Source of the DNA: Limosilactobacillus caviae
GTDB lineage: Bacteria; Bacillota; Bacilli; Lactobacillales; Lactobacillaceae
Assembly (NCBI RefSeq): GCF_014635905.1
Contig: NZ_BMDS01000005.1
Location: forward strand, 124,001 to 188,000
DNA length: 64,000 nt
Direction: 5' to 3'
Both the position numbers and the translations under genes were made by a program. The notes beneath the pieces were generated by a model. The model was not told where the DNA came from. It ran no database searches and worked only from the letters and a program-made list of their open reading frames with translations. Each line of letters starts with the position of its first letter. Position 1 is the stretch's first letter. Shown here in pieces: positions 3,145 through 53,823 of this stretch.

Positions 3145-4032
3145 ATGGCGAGTGTAGAAACTAATAGTGATGCGCTTGATGTTACTCAAGCCATCAACCA
3201 ACAAATTATTACAAAAGTAAAGTATTTACGACGCTTTAACGACGCAATTTCAAATCACCGTGATCGGGAAATCTACCAGTTGCTAGATAACCAACGCTAT
3301 GCTAAAGAAATTGAACATCGCGAGCAGCAGCCAAATGATAAGGGTGTAATGAACCTGGTGGACGACTTGGCTGACCAGTTAAGTAATCACCTCAGTGAAA
3401 ACTTAATTAAATACTTAGGCAAGACTTATCCATTTTTCTATTACGAAGAATATCAAACGGGCCATTACCGGATTTATTTTGGCAATTGGTGGGATCGTCG
3501 CCAGTTTGGTGAATTAGATGTGTTAAATGTCCGTTTTTCTTTTGATCAGACGGAATATGAGAAGCTGCGTACTGCTTTCGAACTTTCACGTGATAATAAG
3601 CGTTATAATAGCGAACGAATTAATAAAATTTCTAGTGAAAATGATCGGCTTCAAGACCTTATTGATCATCAACGAGAACGTGAAGAACGCAAAGAAGCAC
3701 TCCAAGAACAGTTAAAAGATATTAGTTCCCGTTCTGGTATTTGGGAATCTAGCCGAAACAAAGAGAGTCGTCAGGAACTTGTGGAGCAATTGCAAAAGCT
3801 GGAAGACCAAGAAGACGAATCTCGTAATGCGGTTCAAACGATCAAAGATAATGAACGCGTTGTATTATCCCTATCTAAGGAAAATACAATTTTAAGTTAT
3901 GAGCAAAAGAGCATTGTCGATACTTTTGGCAGTTTTGAAGATTTTGAACTGGCAAATCGCAACTTATACGCTAATTACTTAGAAAGCTTAAATGAAGCAA
4001 ACGGAAAGCAGGTGGATAGCGATGAGCAATAA
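3145..4032 (+). CDS. Conserved coiled-coil protein of unknown function
   Basis: The product has 295 residues. The first half contains an aromatic-rich stretch (YPFFYYEEYQTGHYRIYFGNWW near residues 95-115, given here only in outline); the second half (about 150-260) is highly charged and predicted by eye to be a long coiled coil, rich in E, R, K and Q. There is no signal peptide or membrane helix. ATG 3145 is preferred over ATG 3139 because AAGGAG (3132-3137) is then 7 nt away rather than 1. A TATAAT at 3110-3115 is a likely -10 box without a clear -35. It overlaps the next gene by 11 nt, so the two are probably co-translated. I do not recognise the family. Confidence 0.85.
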   Translation: MASVETNSDALDVTQAINQQIITKVKYLRRFNDAISNHRDREIYQLLDNQRYAKEIEHREQQPNDKGVMNLVDDLADQLSNHLSENLIKYLGKTYPFFYYEEYQTGHYRIYFGNWWDRRQFGELDVLNVRFSFDQTEYEKLRTAFELSRDNKRYNSERINKISSENDRLQDLIDHQREREERKEALQEQLKDISSRSGIWESSRNKESRQELVEQLQKLEDQEDESRNAVQTIKDNERVVLSLSKENTILSYEQKSIVDTFGSFEDFELANRNLYANYLESLNEANGKQVDSDEQ

Positions 4033-5053
4033 TCGAATCGTGACTTCTCCTAGTGAGCGAGTACAAGCGCTTTCTGATTCATTTAAGGATGTCTTAAGTT
4101 TAGGACAAAAGTATGTTGACTTACTAGATCGATTAGCGCAGACCAAGGATACTAAGGACCTCCTAGCAGCTACAATAAAGTTAACGAAAATGGATTTAGC
4201 AAATGCGTTTGTTAACTTCCCTCCGCATTATAAAGCGGCTGATTACTTTTTGATTTTTATGGACCGCCTTCTGAAAATGCATGGGGATACGGCTGTTAAT
4301 GTTACAGAGAATGAACTAAACCATGAATTTGAGGCAACAATGGCTTCAATCGGTAATGAAGCAATATTTAAATTTGAGATTGATAGTCGCGGTGAGGCAG
4401 CCTTTACTGAACAGAGTCAGCATGAACCTTTGTTTTACCTCAGTTTAGAAGACAAGTTAATGCAATTTAACAATCGTACTTTGGTAAATTACTTCATTAT
4501 ATATGCATTGAATCAGCACACGGATCTTGAGTTACGAGACGCGGTAAAACCATTGATTGATTTTGCTAAGTATCTGCAACAAGACCTTGATTTTACAATT
4601 GACCTCGGTATCCTTGCAACTGCTAACGATCGTCGCTTTATGCTGGATAAGCCGGATCTCCCATTGACTGTAATTGACCGTCTATTTGTTGCAACTGCAG
4701 ATGAAGATTATATGCTAATGAACCTACCACGTAATAATGGGGCTGAATTAATATTAGATCAGGGTACCAAGCTTGATATTGCCTTTGACCCAGATGATTA
4801 TAGTCAAGAGTGGGCCTTTTTAGTTGAAGATCCTGATGAACAGGTTTCATTCTTTGATGTCTTACTTCATTATGGATTAGTTCGTAAATGGTACTTGGCA
4901 GACCGCGATTCGTTAGCTGTTAGGACAGATCATATGGAAATAGCCGATGATGAAGAAGCGGTGCCTGATAGTGCTAGTTTGGCAGTAGATCAATCTGATG
5001 AAGAAGCAGAGGTAACAACGAAGAAAGACGATTCAGAAGAAAATGATGAATAA
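4022..5053 (+). CDS. Conserved protein of unknown function with acidic C-terminal tail
   Basis: A 343-residue cytoplasmic protein starts at ATG 4022, 5 nt after AGGTGG and inside the end of the preceding gene. The body (about residues 1-300) looks globular and mixed alpha/beta with no motif I can name. The last 40 or so residues are strongly acidic (DDEEAVPD, DQSDEEAEV, DDSEENDE), a feature of proteins that mimic nucleic acid or bind basic partners, though this is only a composition argument. Its overlap with the upstream coiled-coil gene suggests the two products act together. No catalytic motif is visible. Confidence 0.85.
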   Translation: MSNNRIVTSPSERVQALSDSFKDVLSLGQKYVDLLDRLAQTKDTKDLLAATIKLTKMDLANAFVNFPPHYKAADYFLIFMDRLLKMHGDTAVNVTENELNHEFEATMASIGNEAIFKFEIDSRGEAAFTEQSQHEPLFYLSLEDKLMQFNNRTLVNYFIIYALNQHTDLELRDAVKPLIDFAKYLQQDLDFTIDLGILATANDRRFMLDKPDLPLTVIDRLFVATADEDYMLMNLPRNNGAELILDQGTKLDIAFDPDDYSQEWAFLVEDPDEQVSFFDVLLHYGLVRKWYLADRDSLAVRTDHMEIADDEEAVPDSASLAVDQSDEEAEVTTKKDDSEENDE

Positions 5054-23343: not shown

Positions 23344-24297
23344 ATGGCAACATCAATCGTTTTTATGGGTACACCAGAATTTGCTGTTCCCATTTTACAA
23401 AGTTTAATTGACAATTCAGAGTATGATGTTAAGGCTGTATTAACACAACCGGATCATCATATTGGTCGAAAGAAAACACTCCATAAATCGCCGGTTAAAG
23501 AGTTGGCTGAGCAAAATAATATTGAAGTTTTACAACCTGCTAAATTGAGCAAGAGCCCAGAAATGGAAAAAATTATTGCCATGAAACCAGACTTGATGAT
23601 TACGGCTGCATATGGTCAGTTCTTACCAACAAAGCTATTAGCGGCGGCCCAAATTGCAGCTATTAATGTTCACGGTTCGCTCCTGCCTAAGTATCGTGGT
23701 GGTGCGCCAATTCAATATTCAATTATTAATGGCGATAAAGAAACCGGTGTCTCCATTATGTATATGGTGAAGAAGATGGATGCTGGAGATGTATTAGCTC
23801 AAAAGGCAATCCCGATTGAGGATAATGATGATAGTGGCACGATGTTTAAGAAGCTTAGTCTGCTAGGTCGTGATTTATTATTGGAAACATTGCCAAAACT
23901 AATTAGCGGTGATGTCCACCCGGTTGCGCAAGATCCGGATAAAGTTGTCTTTTCGCCAAATATTACAAGTGAACAAGAACAGATTGATTATCGGTTACCT
24001 GCCCGTTTAATTGATGCGAAGGTCCGCGGGTTACGGCCAGCACCACTTGGCAACATGGTTATTGATGGCTTACGGACAAAAATTTACGATGTTACGCCAT
24101 TAACTGAACAGACAGATCTTGAACCGGGAAAGGCAGTCCGTGTTACTAAACATCAATTGGTGATTGCAGCTGGTGATGGGACAACTTACCAGATTAATAA
24201 ATTGAAACCAGCGGGTAAGAAGGCAATGGATATTACATCATACCTTAATGGACATAAAGATATTACTGAGGGAGGACAAGTTGTAAGTGATGACTAA
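23344..24297 (+). CDS. fmt: Methionyl-tRNA formyltransferase
   Basis: The 317-residue enzyme transfers formyl from 10-formyl-THF to initiator Met-tRNA. The N-terminal hydrolase-type domain contains FMGTPEFAVPIL and the active-site HGSLLPKYRGGAPIQY; the C-terminal OB-like domain (about 205-310) binds tRNA. It follows priA after 18 nt and overlaps rsmB by 11 nt. A def gene is not between priA and fmt here, unlike in Bacillus. Confidence 0.97.
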   Translation: MATSIVFMGTPEFAVPILQSLIDNSEYDVKAVLTQPDHHIGRKKTLHKSPVKELAEQNNIEVLQPAKLSKSPEMEKIIAMKPDLMITAAYGQFLPTKLLAAAQIAAINVHGSLLPKYRGGAPIQYSIINGDKETGVSIMYMVKKMDAGDVLAQKAIPIEDNDDSGTMFKKLSLLGRDLLLETLPKLISGDVHPVAQDPDKVVFSPNITSEQEQIDYRLPARLIDAKVRGLRPAPLGNMVIDGLRTKIYDVTPLTEQTDLEPGKAVRVTKHQLVIAAGDGTTYQINKLKPAGKKAMDITSYLNGHKDITEGGQVVSDD

Positions 24298-47896: not shown

Positions 47897-47904
47897 ATTT
47901 ACCC

Positions 47905-47933
47905 TTGAAAGACAAATGAAAACAATGTATAGT
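47905..47933 (+). promoter_or_regulatory. Promoter of rplS
   Basis: TTGAAA (47905-47910) and TATAGT (47928-47933) are 17 nt apart. The rplS gene thus has its own promoter although the permease is on the same strand. Confidence 0.75.
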
Positions 47934-47937
47934 AGTT

Positions 47938-48013
47938 AGTGGCTGTTTAGCTGTGAATAACGGTGTTCCGCTGCCCGTGTTAAAGGACATGAATGTCGGC
48001 GAAAGGAAAGAAT
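47938..48013 (+). promoter_or_regulatory. L19 leader RNA
   Basis: The leader between promoter and rplS holds CGGTGTTCCGCTGCCCGTG and the ACATGAATGTC hairpin, in the place of the L19 leader element of lactic acid bacteria, presumed to sense L19. Identified by position and appearance. Confidence 0.55.
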
Positions 48014-48019
48014 TATATT

Positions 48020-48379
48020 ATGCGTCAAAACAAGTTAATCGAAAAGATTACTGCTAGTCAATTACGGGATGATATTCCAGAATTCCGTGCAGGTGATACT
48101 GTTCGTGTTCACGCTCGGATCGTTGAAGGTTCACGTGAACGTATTCAGATGTTTGAAGGTGTTGTTATCAAGCGCCATGGTGCTGGTATCAGTGCTACAT
48201 ACACTGTTCGTAAGATTAGTAACGGTGTTGGTGTTGAACGTACTTTCCCAGTTCACTCACCACGTGTTGACAAGATTGATGTTCTTCGTCATGGTCGTGT
48301 ACGTCGTGCTAAGCTTTACTACTTACGTGAACGTACTGGTAAGGCTACTCGTATCGCTGAACGTCGTCGCGACAACTAG
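48020..48379 (+). CDS. rplS: 50S ribosomal protein L19
   Basis: The 119-residue bL19 begins [20 protein letters not shown] and contains [19 protein letters not shown] and [15 protein letters not shown]. It sits at the subunit interface. ATG 48020 follows GAAAGGAAAG. It is the last chromosomal gene before the prophage; its reading frame and terminator are intact, so insertion has not damaged it. Confidence 0.98.
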
Positions 48380-48385
48380 TAGTGC

Positions 48386-48416
48386 AGAACCCTTGTGTCT
48401 CAAGGGTTCTTTTTTT
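48386..48416 (+). terminator. rplS terminator
   Basis: AGAACCCTTG (48386-48395) and CAAGGGTTCT (48401-48410) with a T7 tail. The prophage begins beyond it. Confidence 0.9.
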
Positions 48417-48421
48417 GTTTT

Positions 48422-48462
48422 AAAATTATTTTTAAGGAAAAAGAAAGAGCAAAAATAATTTT
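48422..48462. repeat. 12-bp inverted repeat at the prophage left edge
   Basis: AAAATTATTTTT (48422-48433) and AAAAATAATTTT (48451-48462) flank a 17-nt spacer between the rplS terminator and the integrase gene. It could belong to the attachment region or end leftward integrase transcription. Confidence 0.55.
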
Positions 48463-48473
48463 TTAAAGTAAAT

Positions 48474-48495
48474 GGTAGGTTTTTGGTAGGTTTTT
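48474..48495. repeat. Tandem 11-bp repeat beside the integrase stop
   Basis: GGTAGGTTTTT occurs twice in direct succession (48474-48484 and 48485-48495), the second copy touching the integrase stop codon. Short direct repeats next to int are typical of integrase arm-type binding sites. Confidence 0.65.
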
Positions 48496-49624
48496 ATAGT
48501 TCATCAAGTTTTGACGCTTCCTTTTCAATTGCTTTTTGTGTCACGTGAAGATATATCTGGGAGGTAATCTTACTACTGGAGTGACCAACTCTTTGTTGGA
48601 TTACATATAGCGGAATTCCTAACTCGGCCATTTTCGAGATGTGGGTATGTCTGAATACATGAGTACTTAGTGGTTTATTAAGTTTAAGTTTCTTCTTTGC
48701 TGATCTTAAAACAGTATTTACTGAGGCAGTTTGAATTGGTGTGCCATTTTCAGTTGCGAAGATAAAACCTTTGCCATTAGATTTTTTCTTCAGATCAAGA
48801 TAAATTTGAACGGCTTTCTTTGGTAGTACAACGCTACGGACTGAGGATGAGGTTTTAGGTGCGTTGCTCTTTTTTTGTTCTTTGATTTTAATTCGTTTAT
48901 ACTCTAATGTACCGGTTATATCTACAAACCAATGGTTGTCCTTTTGGTAAACATCATCAAAACTTAAAGCGGCTGCTTCGCCAAAACGTAGCCCGGTGAG
49001 ATATAACCATTCGCAAAGTTCTCCGTAGATACGAGTATTATTATATAGATAGTTGAGTACGGCTTTCAGTTCGTCAGCTTCGAGGAACTTATCTTTAATT
49101 TGTTGACCATTAGCAGGGGCCTTATAATCAATTTTAACGTTATCAACCGGGTTATCTTTTGTATATGAGTGTTTTACTGCATAATCAAATAACTTATGCA
49201 GATAGTACTTATATCGTGATACATAGCCACTGGACAACTCTCTATCCCCATACATTAGACTTTCTAGTTTTTCAGTAATGATAAGCGGGGTAAATTTTTC
49301 AACTAAGGCATCGTTGCCAAAAATATCTAGTAAAGTATTAACCATTGTTTGATGGCTATAATACGTTGATCTCCTAATTCGTGGCTTTTCATATTCAGTA
49401 TATTCATCAAGTAACTGCTTGAGTGTAATCCCATGAATTATTTTTCCGATACCGACTTTTGATAAAGCTTTGGATATGCGATTATCTAGAATAATTTGAG
49501 CTTGCTTAGCAGTACTCTTTTTATGGTCTTTCATTGTAATACTGATGATTTTAGTCTTATTAGTTAGGGGATCTTTATATTGCTCAAAGAAGCGAAATTT
49601 TCCATTGCGTTCTTGCATCCACAT
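48494..49624 (-). CDS. int: Phage tyrosine-type integrase
   Basis: The 376-residue recombinase has an N-terminal AP2-like arm-binding part (1-60), a SAM-like core-binding domain (about 65-165) and the catalytic domain with R213 (TGLRFGEAAAL), K257, H322 and R325 (HVFRHTH), H348 (RVGHSS) and the nucleophile Y358 (SQIYLHV). It would integrate and excise the prophage. Gene reads toward rplS with its stop 78 nt past the rplS terminator. Confidence 0.96.
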   Translation of the reverse strand: MWMQERNGKFRFFEQYKDPLTNKTKIISITMKDHKKSTAKQAQIILDNRISKALSKVGIGKIIHGITLKQLLDEYTEYEKPRIRRSTYYSHQTMVNTLLDIFGNDALVEKFTPLIITEKLESLMYGDRELSSGYVSRYKYYLHKLFDYAVKHSYTKDNPVDNVKIDYKAPANGQQIKDKFLEADELKAVLNYLYNNTRIYGELCEWLYLTGLRFGEAAALSFDDVYQKDNHWFVDITGTLEYKRIKIKEQKKSNAPKTSSSVRSVVLPKKAVQIYLDLKKKSNGKGFIFATENGTPIQTASVNTVLRSAKKKLKLNKPLSTHVFRHTHISKMAELGIPLYVIQQRVGHSSSKITSQIYLHVTQKAIEKEASKLDEL

Positions 49625-49626
49625 AA

Positions 49627-49944
49627 TTAATCTTCTCCAATCTCCATCATACTTACTGATTCTTCTAAACTATCAAGGATTTCGTTAGTTTCGATAAACT
49701 CAATCCATTTATTTCTTGGTGTATTTCTATTGGCTTTCACCCCCTTATATAACTTGTCGTAAACATTACTGATAAAATCATCAGTATATTTATTTACGAC
49801 ACGTTCGATTTTAGCGTCATTCCAGCGTTTAGCTGGTTGGCGCTTTTTATTTTTAGCTTCCTGCTCTGTGCGAACTTTATTCTTAAAGATGGCAATAGTT
49901 GTTGAGTTACTATCGATATATTCCAGCAGCTCATTTTTATTCAT
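49627..49944 (-). CDS. Prophage protein of unknown function upstream of int
   Basis: The 105-residue, charged, mostly helical product starts at ATG 49944 (MNKNELLEYIDSNSTTIAIF) after GGAAGGA and ends 2 nt before int, so both are co-transcribed. A Lys/Arg-rich stretch near residues 20-45 (RTEQEAKNKKRQPAKRWND) could bind nucleic acid. Its place suggests an integrase accessory or directionality role, but nothing in the sequence proves it. An in-frame extension upstream comes from the palindrome at 49986-50017 and is rejected. Confidence 0.75.
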   Translation of the reverse strand: MNKNELLEYIDSNSTTIAIFKNKVRTEQEAKNKKRQPAKRWNDAKIERVVNKYTDDFISNVYDKLYKGVKANRNTPRNKWIEFIETNEILDSLEESVSMMEIGED

Positions 49945-49985
49945 AATAAACAGTCCTTCCCGTACATATGTTCTTTTATAGTGCT

Positions 49986-50017
49986 TTTTAAACCGGTCGA
50001 TTTCGACCGGTTTAAAA
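49986..50017. repeat. Perfect 15-bp palindrome between the lysogeny genes
   Basis: Arms at 49986-50000 and 50003-50017 (TTTTAAACCGGTCGA and its complement) are separated by only TT. There is no T run on the minus strand, so it is a poor intrinsic terminator; an operator or recombination site is as likely. Confidence 0.65.
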
Positions 50018-50030
50018 CTCAAATATTAAA

Positions 50031-50063
50031 TAGCTTTTAATGTCATCAATTTAGTTGGACAAG
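50031..50063 (-). repeat. Copy C of a 33-bp lysogeny-region element
   Basis: AGCTTTTAATGTCATCAAT, then TTGGAC, matches the copies at 51288 and 51820. It lies 5' (minus strand) of the small gene-int unit, just right of the palindrome. Confidence 0.6.
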
Positions 50064-50066
50064 ATT

Positions 50067-50660
50067 TTATTTCTTAAATTGTTTTCCACAGTTCATACAT
50101 ACAAAATCAGTTTTCTTTGAATTCTTACCGGCAAAACCGGCAAGTGGACCAACAACAGTACCGTGTGCTAAAACCGTTCCAGCAACAGCTTTACCAACTG
50201 AAAATCCTTTCTTGTGAACTCCGAGTGGTTGTACGTTTGTACTTTTACACTTAGGGCATTTAATTTTGCTGCGATTTTTAAGTTGATGTTTTTGAATCTT
50301 AAGTTGGTTCTTTTGAAGTTTCAGCTCATTCTTTTGCATTTTTGCTTCACGTTTTTGCTCTTTTGTTGCTTGACGTTCAGCTTCTCTTGCTTTAGCTTGT
50401 TCTCTTATTTCCTCAAACTTTTGATCCCGTTCTTCTTTATCCTTAGCAATTTCTTCTGGTGTGCGTGTGTCCTTAAATCGGGGTTGTGTCCCCATGACGA
50501 GCCAAATCGCTATGAAACAAATTCTTCCCAACCAAGGAATATTGAATGAACAAATATTAATTAGCCCAATGATGAATCCGGCGACTAGTCCAGTCGCAAA
50601 ACCACCAGAAGGATCACCTTTCCAAAATTGTGGTTCTTTCTTATTGCTTTCAGTATCCAA
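50067..50660 (-). CDS. Membrane zinc-ribbon coiled-coil protein
   Basis: The 197-residue product has two hydrophobic segments (about 21-38 and 42-57), a charged coiled coil (65-132) containing three tandem heptads of the form QKNxLKx, and a C-terminal zinc ribbon with C135, C138, C188 and C191. A Gly/Ala-rich stretch (GKAVAGTVLAHGTVVGPLAG) lies between the cysteine pairs. It is a membrane protein whose ribbon probably faces the cytoplasm. Between int and repressor, it belongs to lysogeny-expressed genes and may change the host surface or exclude other phages; this is inference. Confidence 0.8.
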   Translation of the reverse strand: MDTESNKKEPQFWKGDPSGGFATGLVAGFIIGLINICSFNIPWLGRICFIAIWLVMGTQPRFKDTRTPEEIAKDKEERDQKFEEIREQAKAREAERQATKEQKREAKMQKNELKLQKNQLKIQKHQLKNRSKIKCPKCKSTNVQPLGVHKKGFSVGKAVAGTVLAHGTVVGPLAGFAGKNSKKTDFVCMNCGKQFKK

Positions 50661-50678
50661 AGTTTAACCTCACAATCC

Positions 50679-51260
50679 CTAATTCTCTTTGATAGTTCCG
50701 TCTGGATAAATGCGTAGACTATATTGAGTACCAGTCATAGTACCATCGTCAGCAGTTCCTTTAACAAAATAATAGCCATCATTAATGGCTTTACCAGTTG
50801 TACCATCAATCATACAGTTCCAATGTATTTTTCCATTTTGATCACCATATTTTGCTTTTGCAGCTGCAATAGCTTGGTCAGGTGAGTTAATAACGTTAGT
50901 AGTTGAACTAATAGAAGATGATTGATTAGGCTGAACTCTTGGAACGGTTACTGAAGAACCACCAGATAGCTGAATAGAAGGTATTTTTACATCGGACATA
51001 CTAAATGAGCTTGCCTGACTTTTAGTAGTTGTATTCTCTGAATTATCGTTTCCGTCTACATCTACCGAATCTTCGTCCGCTTCGTTATCATCAAGTGAAT
51101 CATCATCTTCTGTTAAATCATTGGCCGATTCTTTAGCGAGGCTTGATGCTTCAGCTTTATCTCGACTTGTAGTGGTCTTATGTGATTGATTAGAACAACC
51201 AGTAAGTAGCAACAGGGCTAATGTAGCGGTAGTTCCAACCTGCCAATAAGTTTTTTTCAA
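50679..51260 (-). CDS. Prophage lipoprotein, candidate superinfection-exclusion factor
   Basis: The 193-residue product has a lipoprotein signal with lipobox LLTGC (Cys22), then a long Ser/Asp/Glu-rich linker (23-110) and a small C-terminal domain (about 125-193: DQAIAAAKAKYG, WNCMIDGTTGKAINDGYYFVKG). It would be anchored outside the cell membrane. In Streptococcus phage TP-J34 a lipoprotein gene (ltp) at the same place blocks DNA injection by related phages; similarity here is in position and architecture only. Its start codon is ATG or an upstream TTG near 51260, after GGGGGGGAG. Confidence 0.85.
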   Translation of the reverse strand: MKKTYWQVGTTATLALLLLTGCSNQSHKTTTSRDKAEASSLAKESANDLTEDDDSLDDNEADEDSVDVDGNDNSENTTTKSQASSFSMSDVKIPSIQLSGGSSVTVPRVQPNQSSSISSTTNVINSPDQAIAAAKAKYGDQNGKIHWNCMIDGTTGKAINDGYYFVKGTADDGTMTGTQYSLRIYPDGTIKEN

Positions 51261-51287
51261 ACTAAACTCCCCCCCAAATAAAAATTA

Positions 51288-51320
51288 CAGCTTTTAACGA
51301 CATCGGTTATTGGTCATAGG
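51288..51320 (-). repeat. Copy B of the 33-bp lysogeny-region element
   Basis: CAGCTTTTAACGACATCGG, then TATTGGTC. It lies about 30 nt before the lipoprotein gene on the minus strand. Confidence 0.6.
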
Positions 51321-51321
51321 T

Positions 51322-51792
51322 TTATAAGTTTAATAATTGCTTTTTCTTAGCTTCGTATTCTTCTTGTGTAATTGCATTATTATCAAGAAGCTTTTTAAAT
51401 TTTGCTAATTCATCTGCCGAACTCACAGTTATATTAGAGTTTGTTAGAGCTATTTTTTTATTGATTAATTCAACAAGTTTATTCATTTCTTCTTGATGTT
51501 TTTTACCAAAGATAATGGCATTCTTTTTACTCCATGCCGAACCAGCATAAAGAGGATCTAATCCCCCTAAACCACCACCATGTTCACTTCCACTAATAGG
51601 AACAATAATGATATGACCTCTAGTAATACCTGGTTTCTTATAATCGATACTTGCTATTGCTGAATAAGGAATAGTACTAGAACCAGTACCACCATGATTG
51701 GCGAAACTTCTTAAGCCTCTATGTTCAATAGTTACTTTTTCACTATCAGCAGTAATAATTGCATGTTCTGGAATTTTAATTTCAATTTGCAT
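51322..51792 (-). CDS. SHOCT-domain protein with DUF4429-like N-terminal part
   Basis: The 156-residue product begins with a beta-rich PH-like domain (about 1-110, TVEHRG-like, STIPYSAIASIDYKKPG, GHIIIVPISG) similar to DUF4429, and ends with a short SHOCT helix pair (128-156: ELAKFKKLLDNNAITQEEY, KKKQLLNL). SHOCT domains oligomerise or bind other proteins. Such genes are frequent between int and the repressor in lactobacillus prophages. Function unknown. Confidence 0.85.
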   Translation of the reverse strand: MQIEIKIPEHAIITADSEKVTIEHRGLRSFANHGGTGSSTIPYSAIASIDYKKPGITRGHIIIVPISGSEHGGGLGGLDPLYAGSAWSKKNAIIFGKKHQEEMNKLVELINKKIALTNSNITVSSADELAKFKKLLDNNAITQEEYEAKKKQLLNL

Positions 51793-51819
51793 AAAATTCT
51801 CCCTAATATAAATAAAATC

Positions 51820-51852
51820 CAGCTTTTAACGTCGATCAGTTTTTGGACGTGG
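51820..51852 (-). repeat. Copy A of the 33-bp lysogeny-region element
   Basis: CAGCTTTTAACGTCGATCAG, then TTTGGAC. It lies 28 nt before the SHOCT gene start on the minus strand. Confidence 0.6.
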
Positions 51853-51854
51853 CA

Positions 51855-52283
51855 TTAAACTACATAGTAATCATGAATTTGTTTATTAACCACGTCTGTT
51901 AAATAATTGGGAACATCGAATACTTCCATAAAGTTTGCACTATTAGCGCATTCTCTATCTACTTCTTGACAGTAAAAAGGGACTAGTAATTCAACGGCAC
52001 CAACGTTTGCCTTATATTCAACTGACTCTTTACCAGTAAAAGACGCGTGATAATATACAACGTCCCCATGATCGCCATGAATAACATGAGCTAATTCATG
52101 TGCGAATTGAAAAATAATTTCTTTTGGCCGATGCCAATTAAGGTTCATTACTACACGTCGATATTCGTAACTACTCCCAGGTGGAGTATAAGGAGAAAAG
52201 TGTTTCCATTTAACATCAATATGATATTCTGCAGCTTTTTCTAAAAGATAATCGTATGCTTCTTCTGCTTGTTGATATATCAT
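51855..52283 (-). CDS. ImmA/IrrE-family metallopeptidase
   Basis: The 142-residue protein has the zinc-protease motif HELAH (H62, E63, H66) in FQFAHELAHVIHGDHG and a likely third ligand E89 (VEYKANVGAVELLVP). Such proteases cleave or inactivate the phage repressor encoded with them, as ImmA does for ImmR of ICEBs1, switching the prophage to lytic growth. It overlaps the repressor gene by 4 nt (ATGA), the standard pairing. Confidence 0.93.
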   Translation of the reverse strand: MIYQQAEEAYDYLLEKAAEYHIDVKWKHFSPYTPPGSSYEYRRVVMNLNWHRPKEIIFQFAHELAHVIHGDHGDVVYYHASFTGKESVEYKANVGAVELLVPFYCQEVDRECANSANFMEVFDVPNYLTDVVNKQIHDYYVV

Positions 52284-52588
52284 TTATCATCACCACGCAA
52301 TAAACGTTTCATATATTCTAAATCCTCAGGCGGAATTTCCCTCCCTTCGAACGTAAAGACAGTATCTTTCGATGCAAGGTCAGCTGTATTTTTGCTATCT
52401 GAGTTACCAGTTAAATAGTCTAAAGATACATTGAGATATCTAGCTACTTTCTCAAGATTCTCAGTTTTGGGAGATCTAACGTTCCATTTAGAAATTTGAC
52501 CGTTCGATATTCCAGCTTTGCGCTCTAATTCAGCGATAGTAATTCCGCGTTTACTTGCTAATTGTTTTATTCTCTGAGCTAAATCCAT
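52280..52588 (-). CDS. CI-like phage repressor (XRE family)
   Basis: The 102-residue protein is an XRE helix-turn-helix repressor (about 1-65: LAQRIKQLASKRGITIAELE, ISNGQISKWNV, VARYLNVSLDYLTGNS) with a short C-terminal tail and no peptidase domain, so it relies on the partner protease for induction. It should bind the TAGTC-N4-GACTA sites that lie just upstream. Start ATG 52588 with GAAAGG as ribosome site. Confidence 0.92.
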   Translation of the reverse strand: MDLAQRIKQLASKRGITIAELERKAGISNGQISKWNVRSPKTENLEKVARYLNVSLDYLTGNSDSKNTADLASKDTVFTFEGREIPPEDLEYMKRLLRGDDK

Positions 52589-52625
52589 TACTACAACAGC
52601 CTTTCATATAATTTTTTAAATTAAA

Positions 52626-52639
52626 TAGTCAAAAGACTA
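52626..52639. promoter_or_regulatory. Phage operator O1
   Basis: TAGTCAAAAGACTA, a perfect 5-4-5 palindrome (6-bp arms counting flanks), 38 bp before the repressor start. Confidence 0.85.
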
Positions 52640-52648
52640 TTTTTATTG

Positions 52649-52677
52649 TTGACAATTAGTCAAAAGACTATTATAGT
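52649..52677 (+). promoter_or_regulatory. Rightward early promoter
   Basis: TTGACA (52649-52654) and TATAGT (52672-52677) are 17 nt apart; operator O2 fills the spacer exactly. It would drive cro and the early operon with a leader of about 165 nt. The leftward promoter is less clear: TTGCTA with TACTAT or TATAAT on the minus strand around 52670-52697. Confidence 0.8.
52657..52670. promoter_or_regulatory. Phage operator O2
   Basis: Second perfect copy of TAGTCAAAAGACTA, 31 bp (three helical turns) from O1 and inside the promoter spacer. Confidence 0.85.
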
Positions 52678-52720
52678 ATTACTTGTAAGTTGATTAGCAA
52701 GTACTTACACAAGTTGACGA

Positions 52721-52734
52721 TAGTCAAAAGACTA
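52721..52734. promoter_or_regulatory. Phage operator O3
   Basis: Third perfect copy, 64 bp from O2, preceded by TTGACG. An imperfect inverted repeat of a different sequence (ACTTGTAAGT near 52681 and ACTTACACAAGT near 52703) lies between O2 and O3. Confidence 0.82.
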
Positions 52735-52788
52735 AAAGTTCTTAAAACAAACAAGTTTAATTGTAAGCTTATTTTTTTATTTTAAGAA

Positions 52789-52802
52789 TAGTCTAAAAAC
52801 TA
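52789..52802. promoter_or_regulatory. Degenerate phage operator O4
   Basis: TAGTCTAAAAACTA has one arm mismatch. It is 68 bp from O3 and 45 bp before cro. Confidence 0.6.
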
Positions 52803-52846
52803 ATAAATGTCAATAAAAATTGAAAATTAACTAAGGAGGTGAGAGA

Positions 52847-53056
52847 ATGTCAAATCTTACATATGGAGAAAGGATGACAATTCAATTATTGCGAAATAAA
52901 AAAGCAGGTCTTCAACCTTCAACACAACAAGCTATAGCTCAAAAATTTGGACTTTCCAAGATGTATGTCAGCTCTATTATTGCCGAAAAACAACATGGCG
53001 AAAAATCTGATGCGTGGCGAAAAAAATTTGCCGCATATGCCGGAATGGAAAATTAA
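52847..53056 (+). CDS. Cro-like helix-turn-helix regulator
   Basis: The 69-residue product has a helix-turn-helix (TQQAIAQKFGLSKMYVSSII, about 27-46) and a basic C-terminus. As the first rightward gene facing the repressor it holds the Cro position. AAGGAGGTGAGAGA precedes ATG 52847. It is not of the usual XRE sequence type, so the Cro role is by place. Confidence 0.85.
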   Translation: MSNLTYGERMTIQLLRNKKAGLQPSTQQAIAQKFGLSKMYVSSIIAEKQHGEKSDAWRKKFAAYAGMEN

Positions 53057-53082
53057 CAACTCGATTAAGGAGATAGTCTTCT

Positions 53083-53823
53083 ATGGATGAACCACAACTA
53101 TTAACTTTTCAAGGCGAACCGACGTTAGATAGTCGTGAAGTTGCCAAGATGATTGGTAAACGCCATGCACACTTAATGCGTGACATTCGCTGTTACATCA
53201 ACGATATGGAGGAGAATCCAAAATTGGATTCTCGTCAATTCTTCATTGAAAGTAACTATGAATCCAGCCAAGGGAAACTTTTGCCTTGCTACTTACTAAC
53301 CAAGATGGGTTGCGAATTCGTAGCTAACAAAATGACTGGTAAGAAGGGCACATTATTTACAGCTCAGTACGTGTCACTTTTCAATGAATATCAAGAAGAA
53401 CATAAAGCGATTGAAGCTCATATGACTTCTGATGAAATTGCAGTGCGCAACCGTGAATTAAATTTCAAGGAACAATGGCTTAAAGAAATGGAAGCTCAAA
53501 ACGCAAATAAACGGGCCGAATTACTTTTGAAGATTGCAGGTCATACGCATGGTGACCTTTATCAGCAACTAATGAATGAAGCCACTGACCAGCTTATGTT
53601 CCCTGTGTACCAAGATAAGGTGTTCACTGCTGGTGATATTGCAAACCAACTTGGAGTTAGTCCTTACACAATTGGAATATGGGGACAGCGCTTAGGTCTA
53701 AAAGCACCTAAGGGAATGACTAACCGTTACGGGTATTGGAAAGGTAATCGTTATTACTATAACCAATTAGCAGTTCAGAACTTCTATGAACATCAAGCAG
53801 CAATTATTGATGACGAGCTTTAG
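53083..53823 (+). CDS. Rha-family phage regulatory protein / antirepressor (first copy)
   Basis: The 246-residue product has an N-terminal Rha domain (about 8-105: LDSREVAKMIGKRHAHLMRDI, YLLTKMGCEFVANKMTGKKG) and a C-terminal helical KilA-C/antirepressor-like domain (about 150-246) with ITGDIANQLGVSPY-type helix-turn-helix (FTAGDIANQLGVSPYTIGIW). It probably overrides the repressor or regulates early genes. AAGGAGA precedes ATG 53083. Confidence 0.9.
   Translation: MDEPQLLTFQGEPTLDSREVAKMIGKRHAHLMRDIRCYINDMEENPKLDSRQFFIESNYESSQGKLLPCYLLTKMGCEFVANKMTGKKGTLFTAQYVSLFNEYQEEHKAIEAHMTSDEIAVRNRELNFKEQWLKEMEAQNANKRAELLLKIAGHTHGDLYQQLMNEATDQLMFPVYQDKVFTAGDIANQLGVSPYTIGIWGQRLGLKAPKGMTNRYGYWKGNRYYYNQLAVQNFYEHQAAIIDDEL

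Follow-up and report, generated by a model that had tools for sequence, protein, structure and literature searches.

What does a short repeated element do when it stands before three unrelated genes of a single prophage? The question is raised by a stretch of 64,000 nucleotides (nt) of Limosilactobacillus caviae (contig NZ_BMDS01000005.1, positions 124,001 to 188,000; hereafter the window), in which a sequence-only reading had located three copies of the element, each 5' of leftward genes, and had taken them for a shared promoter/operator of lysogeny-expressed genes. The copies are indeed there, all three ahead of leftward genes, and their cores (AGCTTTTAATGTC at 50032-50044, AGCTTTTAACGAC at 51289-51301 and AGCTTTTAACGTC at 51821-51833) are the sole exact matches to AGCTTTTAAYGWC in the 64 kb. 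We consider it probable that the element is a cis-acting intercistronic leader that forms an H-type pseudoknot, similar to that of the preQ1-I riboswitch, and sets the translation of the next gene. Read in gene sense, the consensus runs from the 5' arm of helix P1 through CAA, 2 to 7 nt and TGA(W) to the 3' arm of P1 and TAAAAGCT, with 4 to 5 base pairs (bp) in P1, a loop 1 that starts with CAA and the A-rich TAAAAGCT as loop 3. The three copies and their parts, including the second helix (P2), are as follows.

51820-51850, minus strand: element copy 3, before the SHOCT gene, with close matches in phages A2, Lrm1, J-1 and others
51846-51850 and 51829-51833, minus strand: 5' arm (ACGTC) and 3' arm (GACGT) of P1 in copy 3
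51843-51845, 51834-51838 and 51821-51828, minus strand: loops CAA, TGATC and TAAAAGCT of copy 3
51839 with 51820, minus strand: P2 of copy 3, C with G
51288-51317, minus strand: element copy 2, before the lipoprotein gene
51313-51317 and 51297-51301, minus strand: 5' arm (ATGAC) and 3' arm (GTCGT) of P1 in copy 2, with one U·G pair
51302-51305 and 51289-51296, minus strand: loops CGAT and TAAAAGCT of copy 2
51306 with 51288, minus strand: P2 of copy 2, C with G
50027-50062, minus strand: element copy 1, before the integrase unit
50058-50062 and 50040-50044, minus strand: 5' arm (TTGTC) and 3' arm (GACAT) of P1 in copy 1, the outer U-U unpaired
50045-50048 and 50032-50039, minus strand: loops TGAT and TAAAAGCT of copy 1
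50049-50053 with 50027-50031, minus strand: P2 of copy 1, TAAAT with ATTTA

The evidence for a structured RNA comes from the way in which the copies vary, since the arms of P1 diverge with pairing kept while CAA, TGA and TAAAAGCT stay fixed. In an alignment of 103 copies (110 references minus 7 dropped as chance-looking, pre-filtered for at least 3/4 P1 pairs), 83 P1 cells had changed on both sides against 28.0 after shuffling, the covariation score of P1 was 0.459 against 0.161 when shuffled and at most 0.156 when slid, both-side changes occurred at four of the five pairs, and RNAalifold recovered P1 unaided. Without any pairing filter, 281 of 320 P1 cells were paired among 64 genome-locus matches (shuffles had a mean of 251 and a maximum of 268), a set in which 20 loci had been chosen by eye before the 5' arm was seen. 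Pattern scans of IMG/VR gave at least 120 stretches in each of two scans and 53 for the flipped form, and de-duplication reduced 215 sequences to 183 in one set and 337 to 285 in a larger one, both of which exclude copies with fewer than 3/4 P1 pairs or too close to the end of a locus. The 285 copies come from IMG/VR phage contigs (216), genomes (55), named phages (11) and the window (3). Their inner P1 pair, counted after this filter, was C-G in 190, G-C in 85 and something else in 10; where the 5' inner base was not C and its 3' partner had been left free in the scan (85 copies, likewise filtered), 79 were G-C. The swap from C-G to G-C characterizes the streptococcal and lactococcal form, and the 16 matches of a scan of Lactobacillales genomes that left both inner bases free had C-G in 14, G-C in 1 and U·G in 1. 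At pair 4 the mixes were lopsided (C-G 93, U-A 49, U·G 30 and C·A 1 in 183 copies; C-G 154, U-A 68, U·G 37 and C·A 5 in 285), with U·G accepted far more readily than C·A, the pattern that an RNA read from this strand should show. Where copies of the same locus had different arms, 191 of 200 cells were paired with the native arm and 140 after the arms had been swapped, again among filtered copies.

The position just ahead of TGA covaries with the one that follows the element's GCT, as in an H-type pseudoknot. This first pair of P2, which no filter had touched, was formed in 143 of 183 copies (100 when shuffled) and in 233 of the 285, and together with one P1 pair it ranks top among all column pairs tested. 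A P2 of at least 3 bp was present in 41 of 183 copies against 11.1 shuffled (for example, TGCCTAC/GTAGGCA), and the helix reaches up to 7 bp in single phages. Among 34 G-class copies, the first P2 pair was C-G in 22, U-A in 5, A-U in 3, G·U in 1 and other in 3. Compensatory changes at P1 and at the first P2 pair support a structured leader RNA. A different pairing, of CCAA with a TTGG ahead of the Shine-Dalgarno sequence, was rejected; it was found in 61 of 147 C-class leaders (30.9 shuffled) and 3 of 72 G-class leaders, possibly only through relatedness.

Covariance models find the window copies again. Model R2, built from 34 copies (33 from IMG/VR and 1 from a named phage) that belong only to the other P1 class and include no window sequence, had as its top three sites in the window exactly the three copies, at 40.7, 21.3 and 17.5 bits (rough E-values of 8.4e-10, 2.6e-4 and 0.003), the next site scoring 9.7 bits with an E-value of 0.51. 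With the window copies included in the model, they scored 46.8, 42.5 and 35.9 bits, and the next window site 13.3. In the host genome, the three window copies, one site on contig C12 and one on contig C2 made up the five best matches, and on that scale copy 2 came near the noise of the leave-out model (17.5 bits, E-value of 0.106, with the next match at 17.2). A weaker, sixth copy (24.2 bits) was seen in the host genome at C12:2349-2386, some 620 nt away from a strong one. A loose scan of the window for the core with at most 2 mismatches did not reach significance (14 sites were found, the mean being 9.06 and 10 of 100 shuffles reaching 14), and the repeat in the window is held significant because homologues support it, not because of that scan.

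The position of the element is consistent as well. Each of the three copies fills an intercistronic gap of the leftward block, and in all three P1 starts exactly 4 nt past the upstream stop codon (51850 and 51855 for copy 3, 51317 and 51322 for copy 2, 50062 and 50067 for copy 1), giving the window a cassette-like layout of element, gene, stop, 4 nt and element again. From GCT to the start codon there are 28 nt for both the SHOCT gene and the lipoprotein gene and 87 nt for the integrase unit, in agreement with the similar spacing that had been noted for two of the copies. In the larger set, 253 of 285 copies were followed within 160 nt by a same-strand open reading frame (ORF) that had 35 or more codons and a Shine-Dalgarno-like match. 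The Shine-Dalgarno sequence of these started at most 13 nt past GCT in 193 and at 3 or 4 nt, the mode, in 66, and the start codon lay at a median of 21 nt after GCT. On the other side, among 250 copies with an upstream same-strand ORF, P1 followed the stop codon by 3 to 4 nt in 66 and by no more than 10 nt in 116. On the gene-sense strand the element thus stands after a stop codon and ahead of the Shine-Dalgarno sequence that comes next, and these spacings indicate that it often fills the gap between the end of one gene and the start of the next. We infer that it is transcribed, folds, and acts on translation through a binding partner: a compact H-type pseudoknot of about 30 to 36 nt would form, on the coding strand, in the leaders that precede single phage genes, the base or bases before TGA pairing with those after TAAAAGCT to make a P2 with one strongly constrained pair. 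A ligand or factor that Lactobacillales hosts share might recognize the invariant loop letters, and the pseudoknot could compete with or present the Shine-Dalgarno sequence. Its most likely job would be to let the translation initiation of the next gene be set independently of its neighbors in a polycistronic phage mRNA.

The genes behind the element are diverse. Downstream ORFs formed 80 single-linkage families (blastp, E-value of 1e-4), and 71 proteins were scanned against family libraries, covering 64 of the 80 families plus seven added proteins, among them the three of the window and those of named phages; the remaining 16 families are mostly short ORFs, with an integrase family of 5 as well. 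Matches included DUF5067, SHOCT and head scaffolding proteins (two PHROGs, with 4 and 1 members), and the Lipoprotein_Ltp match was the TP-778L protein, one of the seven added. A PD-Lambda-1 match (E-value of 1.4e-113) started 27 nt past the element and a KilA-N match 69 nt past it. Abi_alpha, PDC-S22 and PDC-S47 were among the PADLOC matches (members not assigned), and the rest of the PADLOC matches were weak. It is doubtful that an AbiD/Abi_2 gene and a ParA-like ORF are headed by the element, the former starting 150 nt past it with a promoter-like TTGACA in between, as judged by eye, and the latter 142 nt past it. In named phages, the element lies directly before ltp in TP-J34 and before a gene annotated as superinfection exclusion lipoprotein in TP-778L, and Sfi21 has a 49-nt stretch, 92% similar, just before orf203 in what is annotated as its immunity region; ltp of TP-J34 and orf203 of Sfi21 are superinfection exclusion genes. 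Further carriers are A2 (ORF22), bIL310 (orf2) and the satellite phage Javan130, and a scaffold gene is headed by it in phiFL3A as well as in a pneumococcal phage. A regulon of lysogeny genes, as first proposed, is therefore too narrow a description, because the element also precedes head-scaffold genes in structural operons.

A similarity search with the leftward block returned eleven records (A2, Lrm1, J-1, JNU_P9 and R phages) that matched over 37 to 47 nt and at copy 3 only; in A2, Lrm1 and J-1 the element stands between the repressor gene and the next leftward gene. The motif proved enriched in related genomes, the check that the sequence-only reading had proposed: of 50 genomes examined in the genus, 26 had matches, 41 in all, while the reversed pattern used as a control gave 4. 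A stricter pattern gave 16 matches against 0 controls in 108 genomes of the order, the matches falling in 7 genomes, and among 131 genomes of the class (121 of them from other orders) it matched the window's own and no other, though so strict a pattern could miss divergent relatives, copy 2 itself among them. A looser pattern gave 92 rows in 67 of 295 genomes of the order (16 control matches) and 22 rows in 18 of 398 genomes of the phylum; judged by the 3' arm, those outside the family of the window look like mostly chance or another sequence.

Several observations weigh against a pseudoknot that controls translation. In the 103 copies, the count of pairs changed on both sides was 4 against 3.5 (reached by 272 of 500 shuffles) and that of further pair types 9 against 7.4 (80 of 500), and these are the two of five covariation measures named by the tool as least inflated by relatedness; on the 34 copies they were reached by 11 and 79 of 500 shuffles, respectively. 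P1 alone folds no better than shuffled sequences in the window copies (-3.6, -1.2 and -1.6 kcal/mol, with z-scores of 0.11, 0.64 and -0.15), and for copy 3 the most favorable fold without a pseudoknot is not the P1 fold; since P1 is too weak by itself, its stability would have to come from a ligand, a protein or tertiary contacts. Beyond its first pair, P2 is poorly conserved (57.8% of the helix paired), 28 copies of the 183 and 32 of the 285 have a nonstandard combination of G before TGA with A after GCT, and some of the 285 copies are chance matches. Direct occlusion of the Shine-Dalgarno sequence cannot hold everywhere, as 41 of 253 leaders, that of copy 1 included, are longer than 35 nt. 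Lastly, a -10-like hexamer is modestly enriched at one offset, 9 nt before P1 (20 of 284 and 16 of 183 copies). Six of the 41 long leaders hold a recognizable second copy. Such tandem second copies, more degenerate than the first (for example, GTGCAAGCATTTATCCACTTTAAAAGATATGG), were seen between the first copy and the Shine-Dalgarno sequence of scaffold genes at six loci (L016, at 1292-1345, L022, L043, L049, L089 and L111).

The main rival of translational control is a role in RNA processing or stability, in which the pseudoknot would stop 5'-3' decay of the RNase J type or mark a cleavage site, letting monocistronic mRNAs outlive the polycistronic rest. The same structural evidence speaks for it, and so do the location of the element after a stop codon or, at some scaffold genes, after a T-rich hairpin, the tandem copies just described, and the fact that it heads genes needing a level of their own (integrase, exclusion lipoproteins, scaffold). 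For TP-J34, Koberg et al. reportedly saw in 2015 a polycistronic crh-rir-ltp RNA together with short monocistronic ltp and int RNAs, the latter possibly coming from weak promoters, as they are said to have proposed. With the Shine-Dalgarno sequence so close to GCT, translational control is at least as natural, and we regard the processing explanation as rather unlikely. If the element were a promoter or operator at the DNA level, serving a small regulon of lysogeny genes as the sequence-only reading proposed, this would account for several lysogeny units sharing it and for the enriched hexamer; what survives of that proposal is a shared control-type element before unrelated genes. Pairs of hexamers scoring at least 9 occurred upstream of 46 of 284 copies against 52.4 in shuffles, 11 promoter-like matches were found in the window region against 16.9, and the nearest leftward one in the window is a chance-level 9/12 match ending 40 nt before copy 2. 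Since the loop varies from 2 to 7 nt, the element holds no fixed -35/-10 spacing, which makes a sigma-70 promoter unlikely, and covarying P1 arms that tolerate U·G, a P2 that joins two asymmetric positions and the copies in structural operons all speak against DNA recognition. A single-protein operator was likewise disfavored, as the half-sites differ among copies of one prophage (ACGTC, ATGAC and TTGTC), which is unexpected for one operator protein. The promoter/operator is accordingly quite improbable.

Two further proposals were considered. The cassette-like layout and the 80 downstream families would suit a recombination linker, kept only for homologous recombination where cargo cassettes are swapped. 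Such a linker would keep one sequence, yet here only the loop letters are fixed and the arms vary in step; a linker role may be a by-product, and we find it very unlikely as the sole explanation. The least credible proposal, to which we give hardly any weight, is that the element ends the cI operon as an intrinsic terminator, following the annotation of phage A2 (record positions 23736-23765). That annotation (4005-4034 of our A2 locus) overlaps most of the element (about 4011-4040), but the short stem is followed by TTAAAAGC instead of a U tract, TAAAAGCT follows the stem in every row of the 103-copy alignment, and none of the three window copies was flagged by a terminator scan. Runs of T5 do lie at most 22 nt upstream in 12 of 20 scaffold-type copies (classed by sequence pattern plus six hand-listed loci), in hairpins that are separate from the element by eye. 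The A2 annotation of a cI terminator is probably wrong.

The block to which the three copies belong runs leftward from 52588 to 48494, in the order CI-type repressor, ImmA-type peptidase, SHOCT gene, lipoprotein, CxxC protein, small ORF and integrase.

52280-52588, minus strand: CI-type helix-turn-helix repressor gene (PF01381), first gene of the block
51855-52283, minus strand: ImmA/IrrE-type peptidase gene (PF06114), upstream of element copy 3
51322-51792, minus strand: SHOCT gene behind copy 3, 156 amino acids, with a C-terminal PF09851 and a weak DUF4429 match below the cut-off
50679-51260, minus strand: putative lipoprotein gene behind copy 2, 193 amino acids, with a lipobox-like LLTGC read from the sequence and without a Pfam match
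50067-50660, minus strand: gene of a CxxC-motif protein after the lipoprotein, 197 amino acids, with sub-threshold zinc-ribbon Pfam matches only
49986-50017, minus strand: perfect 15-nt inverted repeat TTTTAAACCGGTCGA with a 2-nt spacer, between copy 1 and the small ORF of the integrase unit
49627-49944, minus strand: small ORF behind copy 1, 105 amino acids from the ATG at 49944, without a Pfam match (49627-49941 scanned)
48494-49624, minus strand: tyrosine integrase gene (PF00589)

No Pfam match is common to the genes behind the three copies, in keeping with the earlier remark that they are unrelated. The small ORF would occupy the position of an excisionase. The stretch holding the inverted repeat (49975-50030) folds at -22 kcal/mol (z-score of -6.8), and the repeat is also found beside four relatives of copy 1 (L002, L009, L185 and L279) and in phage LR1; it is a candidate operator, processing site or terminator. 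The divergent cI/cro region (52623-52804) has four TAGTCAAAAGACTA-type palindromes, which are likely CI/Cro operators. At the other end (47993-48494), the end of rplS and its strong terminator-like hairpin (48386-48410) were seen; about 115 nt separate them from the end of the integrase gene, which probably places the prophage on the 3' side of rplS. Upstream of rplS, 47960-47999 resembled the leader of ribosomal protein L19 at 26.2 bits, below the gathering score of 36.

Prophage cargo genes are usually thought to be under their own promoters or CI. That the element heads genes with roles as varied as anti-phage defense, the cell surface, integration and the capsid scaffold suggests that phage genes share a control at the level of RNA, and if this is true, phages of Lactobacillus, Streptococcus, Lactococcus and Enterococcus would have a post-transcriptional control in common. 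The element could then serve as a sequence handle for new defense genes, namely, whatever stands behind it; it also calls the A2 terminator into question, and these ideas can be put to the test in the model phages TP-J34, Sfi21 and A2. In a much bolder version, which we think improbable, one RNA switch or decay-blocking pseudoknot answering to one host factor or metabolite would be a plug-in controller for temperate phages and satellites, placing any cargo behind it under the same RNA-level control outside CI; in the extreme, it would be a bacterial counterpart of viral exonuclease-resistant RNAs, with a protected monocistronic mRNA for each cargo gene.

Scans with Rfam 15 of the window region, of 9 + 18 related loci and of two related element stretches gave no relevant family, the sub-threshold matches at elements being to microRNA, small nucleolar RNA, long noncoding RNA or unrelated small RNA families. 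Type III antitoxin (ToxI-like) repeats are tandem small pseudoknots, and no type III toxin family was among the 13 PADLOC families found in the 71 downstream proteins (64 of the 80 blastp families). The STAXI motif also consists of tandem small pseudoknots, like the element before some scaffold genes, but it is absent from the Rfam matches and most copies of the element are single. A literature search with five literal element strings and candidate names found no further mention, nor any paper joining "GP20-a" with "RNA motif"; a broader search brought up nothing relevant among the papers listed, PMC11109978 has no bearing on the matter, and a possible link to the GP20-a/b motifs of scaffold genes stays a lead. 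In the accessible part of the Ltp paper (PMC3952083) we met no description of the element. The "Lacto-int" motif is listed for Lactobacillales and their phages with a question mark both as an RNA and as a cis-regulator, with "n" as a riboswitch, and with no Rfam accession (Weinberg et al. 2010, PMC2864571). Lactobacillales and their phages carry the element as well, and the name points to integrase; judged by table row and description, the element may be this candidate of 2010. Either way, we class it as a small structured leader RNA that matches no family of the RNA library searched. The model of preQ1-I (RF00522) had no match with an E-value of at most 10 over 47900-53600 or in the two related element stretches, and none at the gathering score in the 9 + 18 related loci. 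That riboswitch is a very small H-type pseudoknot with a P1 of about 5 bp, an A-rich loop 3 and the 3' strand of P2 by the Shine-Dalgarno sequence. The element would resemble it in architecture, P1 and the first P2 pair being supported and a longer P2 occurring in a minority of copies only, but differs in its conserved letters and in heading varied phage genes rather than queuosine genes.

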